The notes below the pieces were generated by a model that was not told where the DNA came from, did not search any database, and was given only the letters and a program-made list of their open reading frames with translations. A stretch of DNA of 64,000 nucleotides. Source: Actinomadura sp. HBU206391 (GTDB lineage Bacteria > Actinomycetota > Actinomycetes > Streptosporangiales > Streptosporangiaceae). Of this stretch, positions 5,141 to 13,858 are shown in pieces. Position 1 is the first letter of the stretch; each line of letters starts with the position of its first letter. The position numbers and the translations under genes are program-made. Location of the stretch: contig NZ_JABVEB010000001.1 in NCBI RefSeq assembly GCF_014323665.1, positions 62,001 to 126,000 on the forward strand, given 5' to 3'.

Positions 5141-5224
5141 ATCGACTCAGGCAGACCTAGATCGACTCACCGGAATTGCTTCGGGACGAAGAGGTCGTGG
5201 GTTCAAATCCCGCCACCCCGACCA
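5119..5224 (+). repeat. AICE attachment site, tRNA-Pro 3' half (copy 1)
   Basis: Bases 5180-5224 are the 3' half of a tRNA-Pro, from the anticodon loop (TTCGGGA, anticodon CGG) through the T arm GGGTTCAAATCCC to an encoded CCA. The 43 bp at 5180-5222 are repeated without a mismatch at 7155-7197. The preceding 5119-5169 is nearly repeated at 10757-10807 and carries two GATCGACTCA motifs 20 bp apart (5140, 5160), with a third related copy at 5279. No 5' half of the tRNA is present. The reading is an attR-type scar of tRNA-Pro integration, with candidate integrase arm sites. Confidence 0.75.
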
Positions 5225-6734: not shown

Positions 6735-7154
6735 TCGCTGTGGCTGCCCAGTCGGACGCCGCTCGCATGGGTCGAATAGCCCGTTACGTTCACCTGGTGG
6801 CGTGTGGCCAGCCCCTCCGGCGTCTGATGCCCGGGTAGATCGCGCCCGCGGACGGTCTACGTCAATTCCGCCACCGCTCACCCCGCTGTAGAGATCCTCG
6901 AGCGTTTTGAATCAGAGGCGTATGCATCCCATGTATCTCATGTATCCCTGAGGCGCTGACCAGGACAAACGCGGGATAAATCTTGGATACACGTATGACT
7001 GCACGTGATCTGAGCAGATGTACGGATGGGCCGCCTGAAAGGCCGCCTACTTCTGCGGTCAACCACGAACGTCGACGAACTCCGCTGATGGCGTCTGCGC
7101 CGGTCGCGCTCCTGCTCGGGCAGGGAAGCGCAGGTCACCCGAGCCTGGGATTCA
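6735..7154. other. Non-coding stretch between tetR and attachment copy 2
   Basis: No convincing gene is seen. The stretch is less GC-rich around 6890-7010 (for example repeated GTATGCATCCCATGTATC-like bases at 6917-6934) and holds no recognisable protein remnant. It ends at the tRNA-Pro 3'-half repeat. Confidence 0.5.
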
Positions 7155-7197
7155 TTCGGGACGAAGAGGTCGTGGGTTCAAATCCCGCCACCCCGAC
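7155..7197 (+). repeat. AICE attachment site, tRNA-Pro 3' half (copy 2)
   Basis: A 43-bp match, without mismatch by eye, to 5180-5222. It runs from the anticodon loop TTCGGGACGAAG through the T arm to the acceptor strand CACCCCGAC. The CCA is not preserved (ACA follows). The integrase remnant ends 37 bp to the right, on the opposite strand, as expected for an AICE attL/attP junction where int abuts the core site. Confidence 0.75.
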
Positions 7198-7233: not shown

Positions 7234-7721
7234 CTAAAACGTTCTCCTGTGGGAATTCTGTGGGACGATCTTCGGATCGTCCCACTTTCCTTTCTGGGCA
7301 CGGGCCATCAGAACCTCGTCGAGGGCGATCATCAGAGACCGTGGATTCATCGCCAGACGAGCGTCCAGCGCCGCGAACCACCGCTCGGGAGCTGATCGCA
7401 CACCTCCGTCCGCATGGTCTGCGTCACATGTGAGTACCGGCCGCCGATCCCCTCCAGCTCGTGACCGAGTCGCTCATGGCCGAGGACCTCCGGCGTACGC
7501 AGCTCGGCCATCAGCGTCTTGTGGGAGTGCCGCAGACCGTGGGGTGTTAGCCCGCGGGCGATCGGCGTCCAGTTCGCTTCCGCGCGGCCGGCGGCGTTCC
7601 GGCCGCGGACTGGCACACCGGGGAACGGGTCGGCGAGCAGCGGCACCGGCCGGGCCTTCTGCGGGCTCTTGGGCGGGAACCACCCCGTCGCCGCCGGTTG
7701 AAAGATCCAAGTCGCGAATCC
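7234..7721 (-). pseudogene. Tyrosine site-specific integrase remnant (C-terminal part)
   Basis: The catalytic C-terminal motifs of an AICE/phage tyrosine recombinase are visible. These are the box HGLRHSHKT (Arg and His of the active site) and RLGHELEGIGGRYSHVT with the nucleophilic Tyr. The preceding region (QPAATGWFPPKSPQKARP) is integrase-like, but the N-terminal arm and core-binding domains are missing. Near 7385 the frame shifts, and the natural tail (ALDARLAMNPRSL to NSHRRTF) ends at a TAG at 7236-7234. The same tail is found again after attachment copy 3. It is non-functional. Confidence 0.8.
7260..7285 (+). terminator. UUCG-loop terminator inside the integrase tail (copy 2)
   Basis: An 11-bp perfect stem, GTGGGACGATC and GATCGTCCCAC, is closed by a TTCG tetraloop and followed on the plus strand by TTTCCTTTC. 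It lies antisense within the last codons of the integrase remnant, downstream of the tRNA-Pro sequence. The homologous hairpin at 10923-10948 carries two compensatory pair changes, so the structure itself has been maintained. Confidence 0.7.
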
Positions 7722-7757
7722 GCTCCGTCGCCAGTGAGCAGCGACGGCCGCGTGGAC

Positions 7758-7904
7758 CCGGCCGCCGCGAACGAACCCGAGACCAGCGATCGCGTCCTCG
7801 ACCAGGACCCGGGTTCTCTCGGCCACCCGCTCGGGCCGGTTAAGGACGTTCGACACCGTCTCGGCCGAGACGCCGGCGCGGCGGGCGACGTCGGCAAGGC
7901 CCGC
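7758..7904 (-). pseudogene. Isolated LacI-type HTH fragment
   Basis: About 49 residues, GLADVARRAGVSAETVSNVL then NRPERVAERTRVLVEDAIAG LGFVRGG, are a textbook LacI-family N-terminal DNA-binding domain. No periplasmic-binding-like ligand domain follows. Instead the frame runs directly into integrase sequence. It is a gene fragment trapped between other remnants, although a stand-alone HTH peptide cannot be excluded. Confidence 0.65.
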
Positions 7905-7979
7905 GCCCCTCGGCCCGGCGGCGTCCTTCCCACGGAACACGTACGTCAGCCCGTGGCAGGCGCACGGCCCGCGGCGCCG

Positions 7980-8324
7980 TACGGGCGATGTGCGCGGACA
8001 CCAGCGCGGAGAACCGGTGCGGCAGCGTCCACGTCCCTGAAGGAGTTGTCTTTCGGCGGGCGGCGCAACAGGCTGCCGTCGTCGAGCTCGTACAGCTGGT
8101 GCGCGTCCGGTGGTGCGTGCCGCTGCGTCTGCGCGCTTCTCCGGCGGTGTACGAGTCCCACCTCCGAGGATCGCCTCGCCGGCGTCCTGGCAGCAGATGA
8201 GCGTGGTGAATCGGAGCCGCCAGATCTCGGTCATGAGCGGGACCATCTCCACATCGACGTCGACGATCGCACCGGTCGGCGTGGTCACCAGCTGGGCGGG
8301 GTGTACCTGGGTCCAGGCGGTCAC
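7980..8324 (-). pseudogene. Remnant of a conserved actinomycete hypothetical protein
   Basis: The frame begins at a GTG overlapping the stop of the upstream kinase (GTGA). It reads TPTGAIVDVDVEMVPLMTEI then TLICCQDAGEAILGGGTRTP, after which the meaningful reading moves to another frame (QLYELDDGSLLRRPPKDNSF). The CCQDxGE segment is reminiscent of small AICE-associated proteins, but I cannot name a family. The frameshift lies near 8110. It was once translationally coupled to the APH-like gene. Confidence 0.5.
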
Positions 8325-9130
8325 CGCAGGCTCCTGCGGTAGTCGGCCCACCGGCGGGTGAGTTCGGCGTGCTCGGTAACCCAGCCTTCACCGTTGCCGG
8401 CCGCGTGCCGGGCCCACCGCTCGGCGAACGCGTCGGAGAACAGGTCGACGTCGGCTGGGTCGGCGCTGGCCCATGAGGGGAACCGGGCGACCCATCGCGC
8501 GGCCTCGGCCGGTGTATGGCCCGCCTTGAGCAGCCAGGGGATCAGGAGGCCCAACTCCACCCAAGCCGCTCCGCGGGAGGTGAACGCCCAGTCCACGACG
8601 TAGGCGCGGCCGTCGTCGGTGATGAGCAGGTTGGTGGCGTTCACGTCGGTGTGCAGGAGCGCGTCACCGGCCATCGGTGTCACGTCGTCGGCGACGGTCT
8701 CCCAGCGCCGCTCGACCCGCATGCCGACCACGTCGGGGCAGGGCACCGCCTGAAGGCCGTCGATGACTTTTACCAGCAGTTCGAGGTCTGGCGAGCCCGG
8801 TGAGTAGTCGGCATGCCTGCCGTGCACATGCTCGAACCCGAGGGCGAGCCACCCCCCGGCCTCTGCTTCCCACAGAAGCCGGGGGGCGAACTCGCACACG
8901 TGCAGGTTGATCCTGGCCTCGTTACGCAGGGACCGGACCTCCGGCCCGTCCCGATCCGCCGACACTTTCCGGGCGGCTTTGACGAACACCCGCCCGCCCA
9001 CGGCGTGCACGGTGGCGGCGATGTCGGCGTGGTTCCCGGTCGGCGCGGGCTCGACGTGGTGGATCGGGCCGGTGTGCGCCTTGATCGCGCCGAGCACCTC
9101 GGGCGGCAGATCGGTCCAGTCGCTACGCAT
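8321..9130 (-). CDS. APH-like phosphotransferase (aminoglycoside/choline kinase fold)
   Basis: About 269 residues starting MRSDWTDLPPEVLGAIKAH. The protein-kinase-like signature is present: an N-lobe Lys in GGRVFVKAARK, the catalytic loop HTDVNATNLLI (Asp and Asn), and the metal-binding Asp in AYVVDWAF. This matches the APH/choline kinase superfamily, whose members phosphorylate small alcohols or antibiotics using ATP or GTP. The substrate cannot be assigned. It overlaps the following remnant by 4 bp and lies in the segment between attachment copies 2 and 3. The ATG at 9130 is preferred over upstream ATGs that read through an unrelated sequence. Confidence 0.75.
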   Translation of the reverse strand: MRSDWTDLPPEVLGAIKAHTGPIHHVEPAPTGNHADIAATVHAVGGRVFVKAARKVSADRDGPEVRSLRNEARINLHVCEFAPRLLWEAEAGGWLALGFEHVHGRHADYSPGSPDLELLVKVIDGLQAVPCPDVVGMRVERRWETVADDVTPMAGDALLHTDVNATNLLITDDGRAYVVDWAFTSRGAAWVELGLLIPWLLKAGHTPAEAARWVARFPSWASADPADVDLFSDAFAERWARHAAGNGEGWVTEHAELTRRWADYRRSLR

Positions 9131-10756: not shown

Positions 10757-10859
10757 GGTGCAGGTGAGGGGCTCCCCGATCGACTCAGACAAACCTCAAC
10801 CGACTCACCGGAATGCTTCTGGACGAGAGGTCGTGGGTTCAAATCCCGCCACCACGACG
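10757..10859 (+). repeat. AICE attachment site, degenerate tRNA-Pro 3' half (copy 3)
   Basis: Bases 10757-10788 are identical to 5119-5150, followed by a diverged match through the GACTCA motif pair (10778 and 10798, again 20 bp apart). The tRNA-Pro 3' half at 10815-10857 is altered in the anticodon arm and acceptor, but the T arm GGGTTCAAATCCC is intact. It marks the right edge of the segment that starts at copy 2 and the left edge of another int remnant. Confidence 0.75.
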
Positions 10860-10863
10860 CAGG

Positions 10864-11055
10864 TCAGGCCCTCTCTCGGGGCCTGGAACGGAGAGGGTAC
10901 GCCCTCTCCGCGGGAGAATTCCGGGAGACGATCTTCGGATCGTCTCCCATCTTCTTTTTCAGCCGGGTCTTCAGCGACTCGTCGAGCGCAGGCACGAGTG
11001 AACCCGGGTGCATCGCCGCCCGCGCATCGGGGGACGCCCGGTCAACTCCCCGCAC
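10864..11055 (-). pseudogene. Integrase C-terminal tail remnant (second copy)
   Basis: The frame contains DARAAMHPGSLVPALDESLK and GDDPKIVSRNSPAERAYPL, homologous to the integrase tail beside copy 2 (DARLAMNPRSLMIALDEVLM, WDDPKIVPQNS). Nothing of the catalytic domain remains upstream on the minus strand beyond about 11055. It therefore represents the edge of a further, mostly deleted element. Confidence 0.65.
10923..10948 (+). terminator. UUCG-loop terminator inside integrase tail (copy 3)
   Basis: The stem GGGAGACGATC pairs with GATCGTCTCCC around TTCG and is followed by ATCTTCTTTTT on the plus strand. Compared with 7260-7285, two base pairs have changed on both sides, preserving pairing. 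It is likely the terminator for transcripts passing through the tRNA-Pro end. Confidence 0.7.
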
Positions 11056-11205
11056 AACTGGCGCGCATCGCCGATTGCGCAGCGGTATTCAGGGTGCGGT
11101 TCTGGGAGGTCTTGCGGTACTTTCGACGCAGCGCCCCTCGGTGCGAAGGCCCCGGCTACTTCGGTGGATGCGCTTCGGCGCGTGTGAAACTACGCCGGTG
11201 CTGTA

Positions 11206-11246
11206 TTGATCTCGGGGGGATACAACTTCAGATCGTTCCCGGTGCG
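11206..11246 (+). repeat. Direct repeat A flanking the Y RNA candidate
   Basis: TTGATCTCGGG (11206-11216) and CCCGGTGCG (11238-11246) recur with almost the same spacing at 11358-11396. The matching blocks frame the tRNA-like RNA on both sides. Meaning unknown; a duplicated promoter or RNA-protein contact is possible. Confidence 0.5.
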
Positions 11247-11248
11247 CA

Positions 11249-11354
11249 GGCAATGGTCACCTCCACCTTGTGATTGGGAGGTCGCGGGTTCAAATCCCGT
11301 CGTCCCCCGCGGGGATGTAGCTCAGTCAGGCAGAGCCCTTACGTCACCGTCGCC
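11249..11354 (+). ncRNA. Bacterial Y RNA candidate (YrlA-type) with permuted tRNA-like domain
   Basis: In order: an outer stem 5' strand (11249-11257); a small hairpin CAC/GTG (11258-11272); GAGG pairing CCTT (11278-11281 with 11337-11340); a T arm GCGGG-TTCAAAT-CCCGT (11284-11300); acceptor-like CGTCCCC-CGC-GGGGATG (11301-11317, seven pairs, one G-U); a D arm GCTC-AGTCAGGCA-GAGC (11320-11336); and the outer stem 3' strand (11346-11354). T arm, acceptor and D arm are tRNA-like but in 3'-half then 5'-half order, with the acceptor closed by a loop and the anticodon arm replaced by the outer stem. This is how YrlA Y RNAs mimic tRNA. It ends 60 bp before the Ro/Rsr gene. Exact ends are inferred. 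Confidence 0.7.
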
Positions 11355-11357
11355 GAC

Positions 11358-11396
11358 TTGATCTCGGGCACGATTCCGAAGGCTCCTCCCGGTGCG
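11358..11396 (+). repeat. Direct repeat B flanking the Y RNA candidate
   Basis: Second copy of the TTGATCTCGGG/CCCGGTGCG block (11358-11368 and 11388-11396). It lies between the RNA and the Ro/Rsr ribosome binding site (GGAAGGAG at 11399-11406). Confidence 0.5.
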
Positions 11397-11414
11397 ACGG
11401 AAGGAGCGTTTCGC

Positions 11415-13094
11415 ATGTCCAAGTTCAACCGCGCGGGTGTCGGCGCCGCGACGTCGAGCCCGGTGAAGTCCGAGCCGACGCCGTCCGGCCGCACCCATGA
11501 GGGAGCGCCCGGGTACGCCCGCGACGCCAAGAGCGAGCTCTACCTCCTCGCGATCAGCAACATGGTCGGCGAGGAGACCTTCTACGAGCAGGCCAGGCAG
11601 CGCGACGACCGGTACGTCCATCTCGTCCAGCGGTGCGCCATCGAAGACCCCGTCTGGACCGCCGGCCTGCTCGAGTGGATGCGCAGCGAGGCGAACATGC
11701 GGTCGGCCGCGCTGGTCGGCGCCGCCGAGTACGTCCGCGGCCGGCTGCAGCACGGCGGCGAACAGCCCCTCCCGCGCAAGCACCACACCGTCGAGGGCGG
11801 CGACTCCCTCGGCTACTCGATCGCGGCGAACCGCCGGGTCATCGCGTCGGTGCTCCAGCGCGCCGACGAGCCGGGCGAACTGCTCGCGTACTGGACGTCC
11901 AAGTACGGGCGGTCGGTGCCCAAGCCGATCAAGCGCGGCATCGAGGATGCCCTCCGCCGCCTGTACACCGAGCGCTCGCTGCTCAAGTACGACAGCGCCG
12001 GCGCCGGCTACCGGTTCGGCGATGTCATCGAGCTCACCCACCCGTCGCCGTCCTCGGCCCCGCAAGGTGATCTGTTCAAGCACGCGATCGACCGGCGCCA
12101 CGGCCGCGACGTCCCCATCCCGGAGTCGCTCGTGATGCTCGGGAACCGGGCCGAGCTGATGTCGTGGCCGGTGGAGGAGCGGCGTGCGCTGTTCGACCGC
12201 ACCCAGGCGGCCTTCGTGCTCAAGGACGCCGGGATGACGTGGGAGGCGGTCGCCGGGTGGCTGCAGGGGCCCATGGACGCGAAGGTGTGGGAGTCGATCG
12301 TCCCGAGCATGGGGATCTTCGCGCTCGTGCGGAACCTCCGGAACTTCGACGAGGCCGAGGTGTCCGATGAGGTCGCCGCCCAGGTCGCGGCGAAGCTCAC
12401 CGACCGCGCAGTGATCGCGAAGTCTCGGATGCTGCCGTTCCGGTTCCTGTCCGCGCACCGCGCCGCGCCGTCGCTGCGGTGGGCGTGGCCGCTCGAGCAG
12501 GCCCTCAACCACTCGCTCGACAACGTCCCGCGGCTGCCCGGCCGGACGCTCGTGCTGGTCGACCGGTCACCGTCGATGTGGCACGCACAGTTCTCCAAGC
12601 GGTCGACGATGCCGTGGGCGGACGCCGCCGCGGTGTTCGGCGCCGCGGTCGCGCTGCGCGCCCAGGACGCCGACCTGGTCGAATTCGGCATCGAGAACGC
12701 CCCGATCCGGTTCAGGCGCGGCGAGTCGGTGCTGAAGGTGATCGATCGGTTCCGCCGGCTGAACGGCACCGACATCCCCTCGGCCGTGAAGGCGCACCTG
12801 CGCGGGCACGACCGGATCGTCATCGTCACCGACGAGCAGACCCGACCCGGCTACCTGCCCTCCAACGGACAGGGCTGGGGCGGGATGGCACCGACCGCGA
12901 TCGACGAACTAATCCCGCAGAGCACGGCGCTGTACATGTGGAACTTCGGCGGCTACACCCACGGCGCGACGCCGTCCGGCTCCCCCAACCGGCACACCTT
13001 CGGCGGGCTCTCCGACGCGGCCTTCGGGATGATCCCGCTCCTGGAGCGGGGGCGCGACGCGGCGTGGCCGTGGGAGGTGGCGAGCGGCTCGTAA
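11415..13094 (+). CDS. rsr: Ro60/Rsr-type RNA-binding protein (TROVE plus vWA domain)
   Basis: 559 residues from the ATG at 11415 (MSKFNRAGVGAAT), preceded by GGAAGGAG; upstream in-frame sequence is the tRNA-like RNA and is not coding. Residues about 30-365 form the TROVE HEAT-like ring (typical stretches VPSMGIFALVRNLRNF and LPFRFLSAHRA). Residues about 375-550 form a von Willebrand A domain with a complete metal site start, D383-R-S385-P-S387. Ro proteins bind Y RNAs and misfolded or structured RNAs. Bacterial Rsr works with Y RNA and exoribonucleases in RNA quality control and stress recovery. The adjacent Y RNA candidate supports this. Neither RtcB nor PNPase is nearby. Confidence 0.92.
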   Translation: MSKFNRAGVGAATSSPVKSEPTPSGRTHEGAPGYARDAKSELYLLAISNMVGEETFYEQARQRDDRYVHLVQRCAIEDPVWTAGLLEWMRSEANMRSAALVGAAEYVRGRLQHGGEQPLPRKHHTVEGGDSLGYSIAANRRVIASVLQRADEPGELLAYWTSKYGRSVPKPIKRGIEDALRRLYTERSLLKYDSAGAGYRFGDVIELTHPSPSSAPQGDLFKHAIDRRHGRDVPIPESLVMLGNRAELMSWPVEERRALFDRTQAAFVLKDAGMTWEAVAGWLQGPMDAKVWESIVPSMGIFALVRNLRNFDEAEVSDEVAAQVAAKLTDRAVIAKSRMLPFRFLSAHRAAPSLRWAWPLEQALNHSLDNVPRLPGRTLVLVDRSPSMWHAQFSKRSTMPWADAAAVFGAAVALRAQDADLVEFGIENAPIRFRRGESVLKVIDRFRRLNGTDIPSAVKAHLRGHDRIVIVTDEQTRPGYLPSNGQGWGGMAPTAIDELIPQSTALYMWNFGGYTHGATPSGSPNRHTFGGLSDAAFGMIPLLERGRDAAWPWEVASGS

Positions 13095-13301: not shown

Positions 13302-13778
13302 TCACAACGGGCGCAGGTGCTCGATCGTGACGTGGTGCTGCTCGGTCAGCCGCTGGGCGATCAACGAGCGGTGGCAGGCCTCGGGGTCGCGCTCGACACA
13401 GAGCAGCGCTGCGGTCCCACTGCTCGACAGCTCCGACACGATCGGCGTGAGGCTGGCGCGGTCGAGGATCTCGGTCGTGTAGCGGCGGGTGTACTCGGCA
13501 GCGAGTTCGCGGCGCGAGCGCTTGCCGGCCCCTTGGCGGTCATCCTCGGCGTACTGGAGCCGACGTAGCTCGGTGGTCGGGGCGAGCTCGGGGTGGTGCT
13601 CGTAGGCGATCCGAGCATGGGCGAGGGCCGCCTGCAGCCGACGTGAGTTCGCCCAGGCGTACTCGGGTCCGCGGACACCGCGGCGCCGGCGTACGTCGAG
13701 CAGCAGACGAACGTCCGCGTGCCGCAGTCGTTGCAGGAAGGACTCGCCGCCGAAGCCATAGACGCCGATCGTCACCAT
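13302..13778 (-). CDS. DUF488 family protein
   Basis: About 158 residues. It has the DUF488 hallmarks: N-terminal VTIGVYGFGGESFLQRL, the LLDVRRRRGVRG segment, and the C-terminal ALLCVERDPEACHRSLIAQR with the conserved Cys-His-Arg. The family is widespread and uncharacterised; the Cys-containing C-terminal loop has prompted suggestions of a phosphatase-like or nucleic-acid role. The ATG at 13778 is chosen over a GTG at 13787. It is convergent with rsr and separated by the terminator hairpin. Confidence 0.85.
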   Translation of the reverse strand: MVTIGVYGFGGESFLQRLRHADVRLLLDVRRRRGVRGPEYAWANSRRLQAALAHARIAYEHHPELAPTTELRRLQYAEDDRQGAGKRSRRELAAEYTRRYTTEILDRASLTPIVSELSSSGTAALLCVERDPEACHRSLIAQRLTEQHHVTIEHLRPL

Positions 13779-13858
13779 CCTGAGCACCGCACATCACCCA
13801 CCTGCCTACCACTCGTACCGGTTCGACCGGCAGGGCTGCCGGAGGCGGCGAGGCCGCA

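Follow-up and report, generated by a model that had tools for sequence, protein, structure and literature searches.

A probable Y RNA–Ro60 cassette with a permuted tRNA-like unit in Actinomadura sp. HBU206391

Which RNA, if any, partners the Ro60-like protein encoded in Actinomadura sp. HBU206391, and what might the tRNA-like build of that RNA serve? The roles of bacterial Ro60 and its Y RNAs are known in very few species, and we address the question here on a 64,000-nucleotide stretch of this actinomycete's genome (contig NZ_JABVEB010000001.1, positions 62,001 to 126,000 of the forward strand; the window), in which a gene for a TROVE-vWA protein is preceded by elements resembling Y RNAs. In the bacterial Y RNA YrlA, which tethers PNPase, a tRNA-like head resembling the D, T and acceptor arms is combined with a stem for Ro binding (PMC8394870). 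Mycobacterium smegmatis has an Rsr that binds Yrl RNA (PMC4726728), and yrlA has been predicted in some mycobacteria (PMC9569102). An initial annotation, made from the sequence alone, had proposed a YrlA-type RNA in this actinomycete as worth testing. Its presence is supported here, while actinobacterial YrlA itself is not new, since the M. smegmatis Rsr-Yrl pair is already cited. Our analysis indicates that the locus is very probably a Y RNA–Ro60 cassette.

The permuted tRNA-like unit and its outer stem

The evidence for the RNA comes from comparison between species. We built a covariance model, R1, from 27 tRNA-type units of other species, with the structure imposed and the window copy left out, and it recovers the second of two units in the window (unit 2) over its full length, with a score of 100.7 bits (E 1.1e-21 over the 64-kb window). 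In the 27-unit alignment, 95% of the imposed positions are paired, 18 pairs carry changes on both sides, and the covariation score is 0.388 as against 0.128 for shuffled alignments, a value that none of 500 shuffles reaches; sliding the imposed structure lowers pairing to 35–48%. Covariation is strongest in the acceptor-type stem, and the outer Ro-type stem, near-invariant across relatives, covaries as well, so that the Ro-binding stem characteristic of YrlA is present. The permuted element, with T arm, loop-capped acceptor stem and D arm in the order 3' half then 5' half, is thus confirmed in the window (11284–11336), as the initial annotation had read it. The enclosing outer stem that it had drawn also exists but is longer (~11236–11371), and the extent of the RNA, previously given as 11249–11354, is corrected by R1 to the same limits. 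That earlier description was moreover incomplete, having overlooked another unit (~11131–11220), an anticodon-like arm (11262–11278) and a leader hairpin that holds the Shine-Dalgarno (SD) sequence (Table 1).

Unit 1 consists of a Ro-type stem (CCCCTCGGTGCGAAGGC...TATTGATCTCGGGGGG), a TACTTC motif and a UUCG hairpin, and has no tRNA part; units of this hairpin-type class also precede TROVE genes in loci L003, L010, L026, L028 and others. Both units share the end stem CCCGGTGCG-AGGC..CGG...TACTTC / CCG.CGCC..TTGATCTCGGG. In unit 2, which ends ~44 nt upstream of the TROVE start codon, the 5' strand of the outer stem pairs CCCG, GGC and TGG with the 3' strand, and the D- and T-loops offer predicted sites for tRNA-type modifications (dihydrouridine (D), pseudouridine). 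A linker, ACAACTTCA, is kept between units in many loci (~11221–11230 in the window) and is a possible processing site. Upstream of the array lies a strong intrinsic-terminator-like hairpin (10923–10948).

Table 1. Features of the Y-RNA array and the TROVE gene, in positions of the window
Feature	Position	Strand	Remarks
-10-like box TACTTT	11118..11123	+	7 nt 5' of first Y-RNA unit; putative array promoter
Y-RNA unit 1, hairpin type	~11131..11220	+	R1 match 11135-11219, 23.1 bits, E 0.0015
Y-RNA unit 2, permuted-tRNA (YrlA-like) type, complete	~11236..11371	+	R1 100.7 bits; Rfam YrlA core 11270-11347
Ro-type outer stem, 5' strand TTCCCGGTGCGCAGGCAATGGTCACC	11236..11261	+	near-invariant in relatives
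Anticodon-like arm TCCAC CTTGTGA TTGGG	11262..11278	+	4/5 pairs; arm covaries among relatives
Variable-loop-like AGGTC, 5 nt	11279..11283	+	class I tRNA-like spacing
T arm GCGGG TTCAAAT CCCGT	11284..11300	+	permuted-order element
Loop-capped acceptor-type stem CGTCCCC cgc GGGGATG	11301..11317	+	7/7 pairs, cap CGC
D arm GCTC...GAGC	11320..11336	+	permuted-order element
Ro-type outer stem, 3' strand ...CACCGTCGCCGACTTGATCTCGGGCAC	11343..11371	+	near-invariant in relatives
Hairpin GCTCCTCCCG-GTGCGA-CGGAAGGAGC	11382..11407	+	TROVE Shine-Dalgarno 11399-11406 within 3' arm
TROVE-vWA protein gene (Ro60/Rsr-like), 559 aa	11415..13094	+	ATG start 11415; Pfam TROVE

Linkage to TROVE genes and the proposed mechanism

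Is this RNA tied to the protein? We counted upstream units in 98 distinct actinobacterial TROVE loci. At least one Y-RNA unit lies upstream of 97 of these genes and two to five upstream of 84, with a median of 51 nt between the end of the last unit and the start codon. Loss of the arm order upstream of related TROVE genes had been named beforehand as grounds for abandoning the Y-RNA assignment; the order is conserved, with at least one tRNA-type unit in 83 of the 98 loci and strong covariation. Among 198 genomes of the same class, R1 scores 71.9 bits or more in 22 of the 24 that have a TROVE relative versus one of the 174 that lack one (p ~7e-26), and the match in that one genome is a tandem tRNA-Asn pair. 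The pairing of a hairpin-type with a tRNA-type unit seen in the window recurs in L003 and L010, and in other unit types the Ro stem bears a simple hairpin, a T arm alone or a tRNA-like body with a Glu-like or Leu-like D arm. The contig that holds the window bears another TROVE locus, headed by a tRNA-type unit of 98.3 bits and a further unit of 36.6 bits; the TROVE gene of this second locus lies at 242655–244573 (contig C1 of genome G000; L017, L037), and a further TROVE fragment of the genome is found on contig C307.

Three variants of the arrangement were seen elsewhere. Units resembling a permuted tRNA-Leu, which seemingly keep the long variable arm (GTGGCGGAA D arm), occur in L056, L058, L060 and L065. 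At 280–545 of L208, in a Streptomyces-like genome and away from its TROVE genes, lies a genuine orphan Y-RNA array whose permuted tRNA is of the Leu type. In L207 (genome G053, contig C174), a Y unit of 97 bits sits within a 16-tRNA array adjoining a TROVE gene, an arrangement that resembles phage tRNA clusters.

The 559-residue product of the adjoining gene matches Pfam TROVE (E 2.8e-14), and both the TROVE ring and the vWA domain are present by Pfam and in the AlphaFold model (predicted local distance difference test 80). In Foldseek comparisons, the model matches 9kop, 9l5y, 1yvp and 2nvo with E values from 1e-17 to 1e-12, matches that include a Trove domain crystal structure, phiLo Ro60, the Ro autoantigen (1yvp), human Ro60 and Deinococcus Rsr; by sequence, the PDB relatives are 9l5y/9kop and, weakly, Ro60. 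The MIDAS-like DxSxS residues of the vWA domain (D383, S385, S387) are invariant across 16 homologues, and PADLOC gives the protein no defence-system match. On the strength of this modelling, the gene is predicted to encode a Ro60-fold protein; by its NCBIfam score, the product is Ro60-like but not the Rsr equivalog. The window thus has a Ro60 orthologue as the gene neighbour of its Y RNA, as expected of a bacterial Y RNA, and the earlier proposal of a Y RNA beside a Ro60/Rsr gene gains support from R1, TROVE co-occurrence and the fold alike.

Comparison with known systems places the locus further. With YrlA (RF02553; Salmonella PDB 6CU1; M. smegmatis) it shares the permuted T arm, capped acceptor and D arm, the supporting stem in which the two ends of the RNA pair, and the adjacent Ro60/Rsr gene, whereas actinobacterial units score below the Rfam cut-off, mostly have an anticodon arm, form tandem arrays and are followed by a buried SD before the TROVE gene. 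The four-armed form with a variable anticodon, the arrays and the buried SD are apparently without earlier description in a literature search that left out the primary YrlA papers. The closest solved structures, 9kop and 9l5y, connect the protein to the Ro60 modules of phages (Thermus phage phiLo, 9l5y; also those of Streptomyces, Gordonia and Arthrobacter), whose copies likewise carry R1-positive Y units; these, however, are found within groups of tRNA genes or next to an RNA ligase, while the window copy lies near katG with no adjoining tRNAs.

From the sequence, the covariation-based structure, the linkage and co-occurrence and the Ro60 fold, we infer the following for transcription, processing, binding, effector recruitment and regulation. 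A single promoter just upstream of 11131 would drive the two serial Y-RNA units and then the TROVE gene, and the transcript would be processed into single RNAs. The end stem of each unit would be expected to dock on the outer face of the Ro60 ring, as in animal and Deinococcus Ro. The units differ in their top domain: unit 1 bears a simple hairpin, whereas unit 2 bears a tRNA with a circular permutation at 26/27. Because a short loop seals its acceptor end, the tRNA domain of unit 2 could neither be charged nor translate. The tRNA-like head most likely recruits a tRNA- or RNA-handling effector to the ring (PNPase in the known case), and the ring may then handle or gate damaged or misfolded RNA. 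As the last hairpin buries the TROVE SD, expression of rsr is probably under control and weaker than that of the Y RNAs.

The anticodon-like arm and points against the cassette

Most related units carry one element more than YrlA is credited with. We chose units solely by T arm, acceptor stem and TACTTC motif, and the commonest spacing between TTC and the T stem is 21–22 nt (104 of 168 units), which is exactly the space for a 5+7+5 arm plus a variable loop of 4–5 nt; at least four of the five arm pairs form in 89 of the 102 distinct units of that length. The two freely varying arm pairs are paired in 86% of cases versus 46% after shuffling, with 62 versus 20 double-change cells (0 of 2000 shuffles), statistics that sequence relatedness inflates; C-G, G-C, A-U and U-A states at one and the same pair argue for a real constraint despite it. 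In the 89 armed units, U33 (86), a purine at 37 (85) and A38 (82) are conserved, while positions 34–36 vary most, with 30 triplets and one stop anticodon, and A34 is rarer than A35 or A36 (p 0.01). Such arrays escape standard annotation or are mis-annotated: ARAGORN, which has no Y-RNA model, labels units in L024 and L026 as tRNA-Asn(gtt), in L011 as tRNA-Ile(gat). Judged by these alignments, the tRNA domain in relatives is a complete four-armed tRNA, anticodon arm included.

The Rfam YrlA structure has no anticodon arm, whereas most relatives do. Owing to the extra arm, the Rfam model reaches only the core (24–84) in four-armed L024, L020 and the first unit of L111, and aligns over 1–114 in arm-less L110 and the second unit of L111. 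Capture of whole tRNAs was considered as the source of the anticodons and is unsupported, because a Glu-type body (TCGTCTAG D arm) carries Glu, Gly, Leu, Cys and Asp triplets. On viral contigs (L155, L158, L156), units with all four arms were seen too, their triplet being TGT or GTT.

Several observations weigh against reading the locus as a Y RNA–Ro60 cassette. First of all, the Rfam YrlA search that the initial annotation had called for gave a match (E 5.5e-6, in 801 nt searched against all 4227 families), but at 35.7 bits this stays under the gathering cut-off of 69 bits, and a whole-window scan at gathering thresholds does not list YrlA. Actinobacterial units score 31–56 bits in general, the best relative scanned 56.3, all below 69; with the gathering score unreached, unit 2 is classed as a YrlA-like variant and not as a member of the Rfam family. 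Second, the minimum free energy fold of the window copy is not tRNA-like (−54.1 kcal/mol versus −47.6 with tRNA-like pairs imposed) and its fold z-score reaches no more than −1.4; folding energies have no discriminating power here, and the case rests on the cross-species comparison. Third, the window's anticodon-like arm is degenerate, with one extra base before it and one mismatch (31x39, CxU); its triplet is UGU, and the segment can alternatively be drawn as a 4-bp stem with a 9-nt loop. Fourth, the protein scores 18.4 bits against the NCBIfam Rsr equivalog model NF041674, whose cut-off is 900, a distance so large that its function could differ from that of Deinococcus Rsr. Finally, no PNPase or RtcB linkage is seen at the locus. 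In this it departs from the Y RNA-Rsr-PNPase system (RYPER) of Deinococcus radiodurans, which it resembles in having a Y RNA beside a Ro60-fold protein, though over the structural match that protein shares 17% identity with 2nvo, and from the Salmonella rsr-yrlBA-rtcBA operon, which it resembles in having several Y RNAs per Rsr; RtcB is encoded on a separate contig (C389), in accord with the lack of RtcB linkage noted at the outset, so that the arrangement differs from an RNA repair operon with adjacent rtcB.

Could the arm itself be the point of the arrays? Y RNAs that keep a whole tRNA with a varying triplet point to tRNA surveillance or to anticodon nucleases, and this can be tested. The arrays might act as decoys or sensors, uncharged end-sealed mimics with anticodon arms of several identities, which anticodon nucleases (toxins, or phage-triggered enzymes) would bind or cut, with Ro60 handling the result. 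Salmonella YrlA has been proposed as a possible competitive inhibitor of an anticodon nuclease (PMC7790460) and phage tRNA clusters answer such nucleases (PMC10264068), proposals that, together with the phage context, motivate the idea: in Streptomyces phages Alone3 and BRock and Arthrobacter phage Atuin, the Ro-like gene belongs to a tRNA cluster, the TROVE gene of phage Kela adjoins an RNA ligase, and the Y unit of L207 sits among tRNAs. A 7-nt loop that keeps U33, R37 and A38 while 34–36 vary, with A34 depleted, would also fit. We nevertheless consider it unlikely, as many units, such as Streptomyces copies, have no anticodon arm, Salmonella YrlA is not cut (PMC7790460), the triplets could merely drift within a conserved U-turn loop, and the window copy is degenerate with no nuclease linkage. 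The wider form of the idea, that actinobacteria and their phages keep banks of sealed permuted tRNAs with varied anticodons before Ro60 genes, as decoys or sensors feeding a Ro60 repair or decay response, is equally doubtful.

Expression layout, leader and tRNA-gene readings

How such arrays are expressed can be surmised from their layout. A TANNNT box lies 18–24 nt upstream of the first unit's GGTG in 52 of 97 loci and hardly ever ahead of the units that follow, which is consistent with a single promoter and a processed array; a simple scan for the sigma-70 consensus pair found none at the array. Hairpins scoring at least 26 are found ahead of the TROVE start in 27% of 98 loci, against 0.9% after shuffling, and in 28 of the 98 a hairpin of at least 22 holds the SD core in its 3' arm. 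They reach 17 bp (L069), and examples have differing but paired arms. Some precede terminator-like T runs; the one in the window has only a short T run. A promoter ahead of the array and burial of the SD are what this layout would suggest.

The same features could speak for a cis-regulatory leader, in which the structures mainly control rsr, by attenuation or by SD sequestration through Ro60 on its own leader, and are not free RNAs. The fixed placement before the start codon and the over-represented SD hairpins, whose loop repeats the Ro-stem motif CCGGTGCG in several loci, are in its favour. Up to five complete Ro-stem units, however, exceed a leader's needs, Yrl RNAs elsewhere are free and Rsr-bound (PMC4726728), and the orphan array of L208 has no adjoining TROVE gene, and we regard the leader as a rather improbable account of the arrays.

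Far less survives of the readings that make unit 2 a tRNA gene. Tandem tRNA-Asn genes with 4-nt spacers reach 60–73 bits in R1, and tRNA-Pro 3'-end repeats lie nearby, so the unit might be two neighbouring half-tRNAs, a 3' half followed by the 5' half of the next tRNA, that resemble a permuted tRNA by accident. Three R1 matches of 60–73 bits that we examined away from TROVE genes were such pairs and were rejected as Y RNAs, while a fourth, in L208, is the genuine orphan array; TROVE-distant matches in that range thus need checking for tRNA pairs. For the window, this reading is rejected: ARAGORN finds no tRNA at the locus, an outer Ro-type stem is present and covaries, the unit scores 100.7 bits, and the same layout stands upstream of TROVE genes in many genera; its probability is minimal. 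Tandem tRNA pairs, which share the 3'-half/5'-half order, suggest a possible origin of the permuted domain. Permuted tRNA genes occur in some algae and archaea, and relatives with four complete arms and a genome that encodes RtcB would suit a unit cut at the Ro stem and resealed into a working tRNA, but conservation is highest in the Ro stem, the units are tied to TROVE, and the capped acceptor lacks CCA, with a loop of mostly 2–8 nt and no splicing motif seen, which makes this reading extremely improbable.

The putative Y RNA–Ro60 cassette has further neighbours in the window. A gene for a DUF488 protein (13302–13787, minus strand), matching PADLOC candidates PDC-M19A and PDC-M45C, adjoins the TROVE gene. 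The 3' end of tRNA-Pro(CGG) is directly repeated at 5172–5222, 7147–7197 and 10808–10858, with the complete tRNA-Pro(CGG) elsewhere on the same contig (L176); by their sequence, the repeats appear to be attachment-site-like copies of nested integrated elements. An open reading frame at 7347–8351 (minus strand) fuses a LacI helix-turn-helix to a weak phage-integrase C-terminal remnant.
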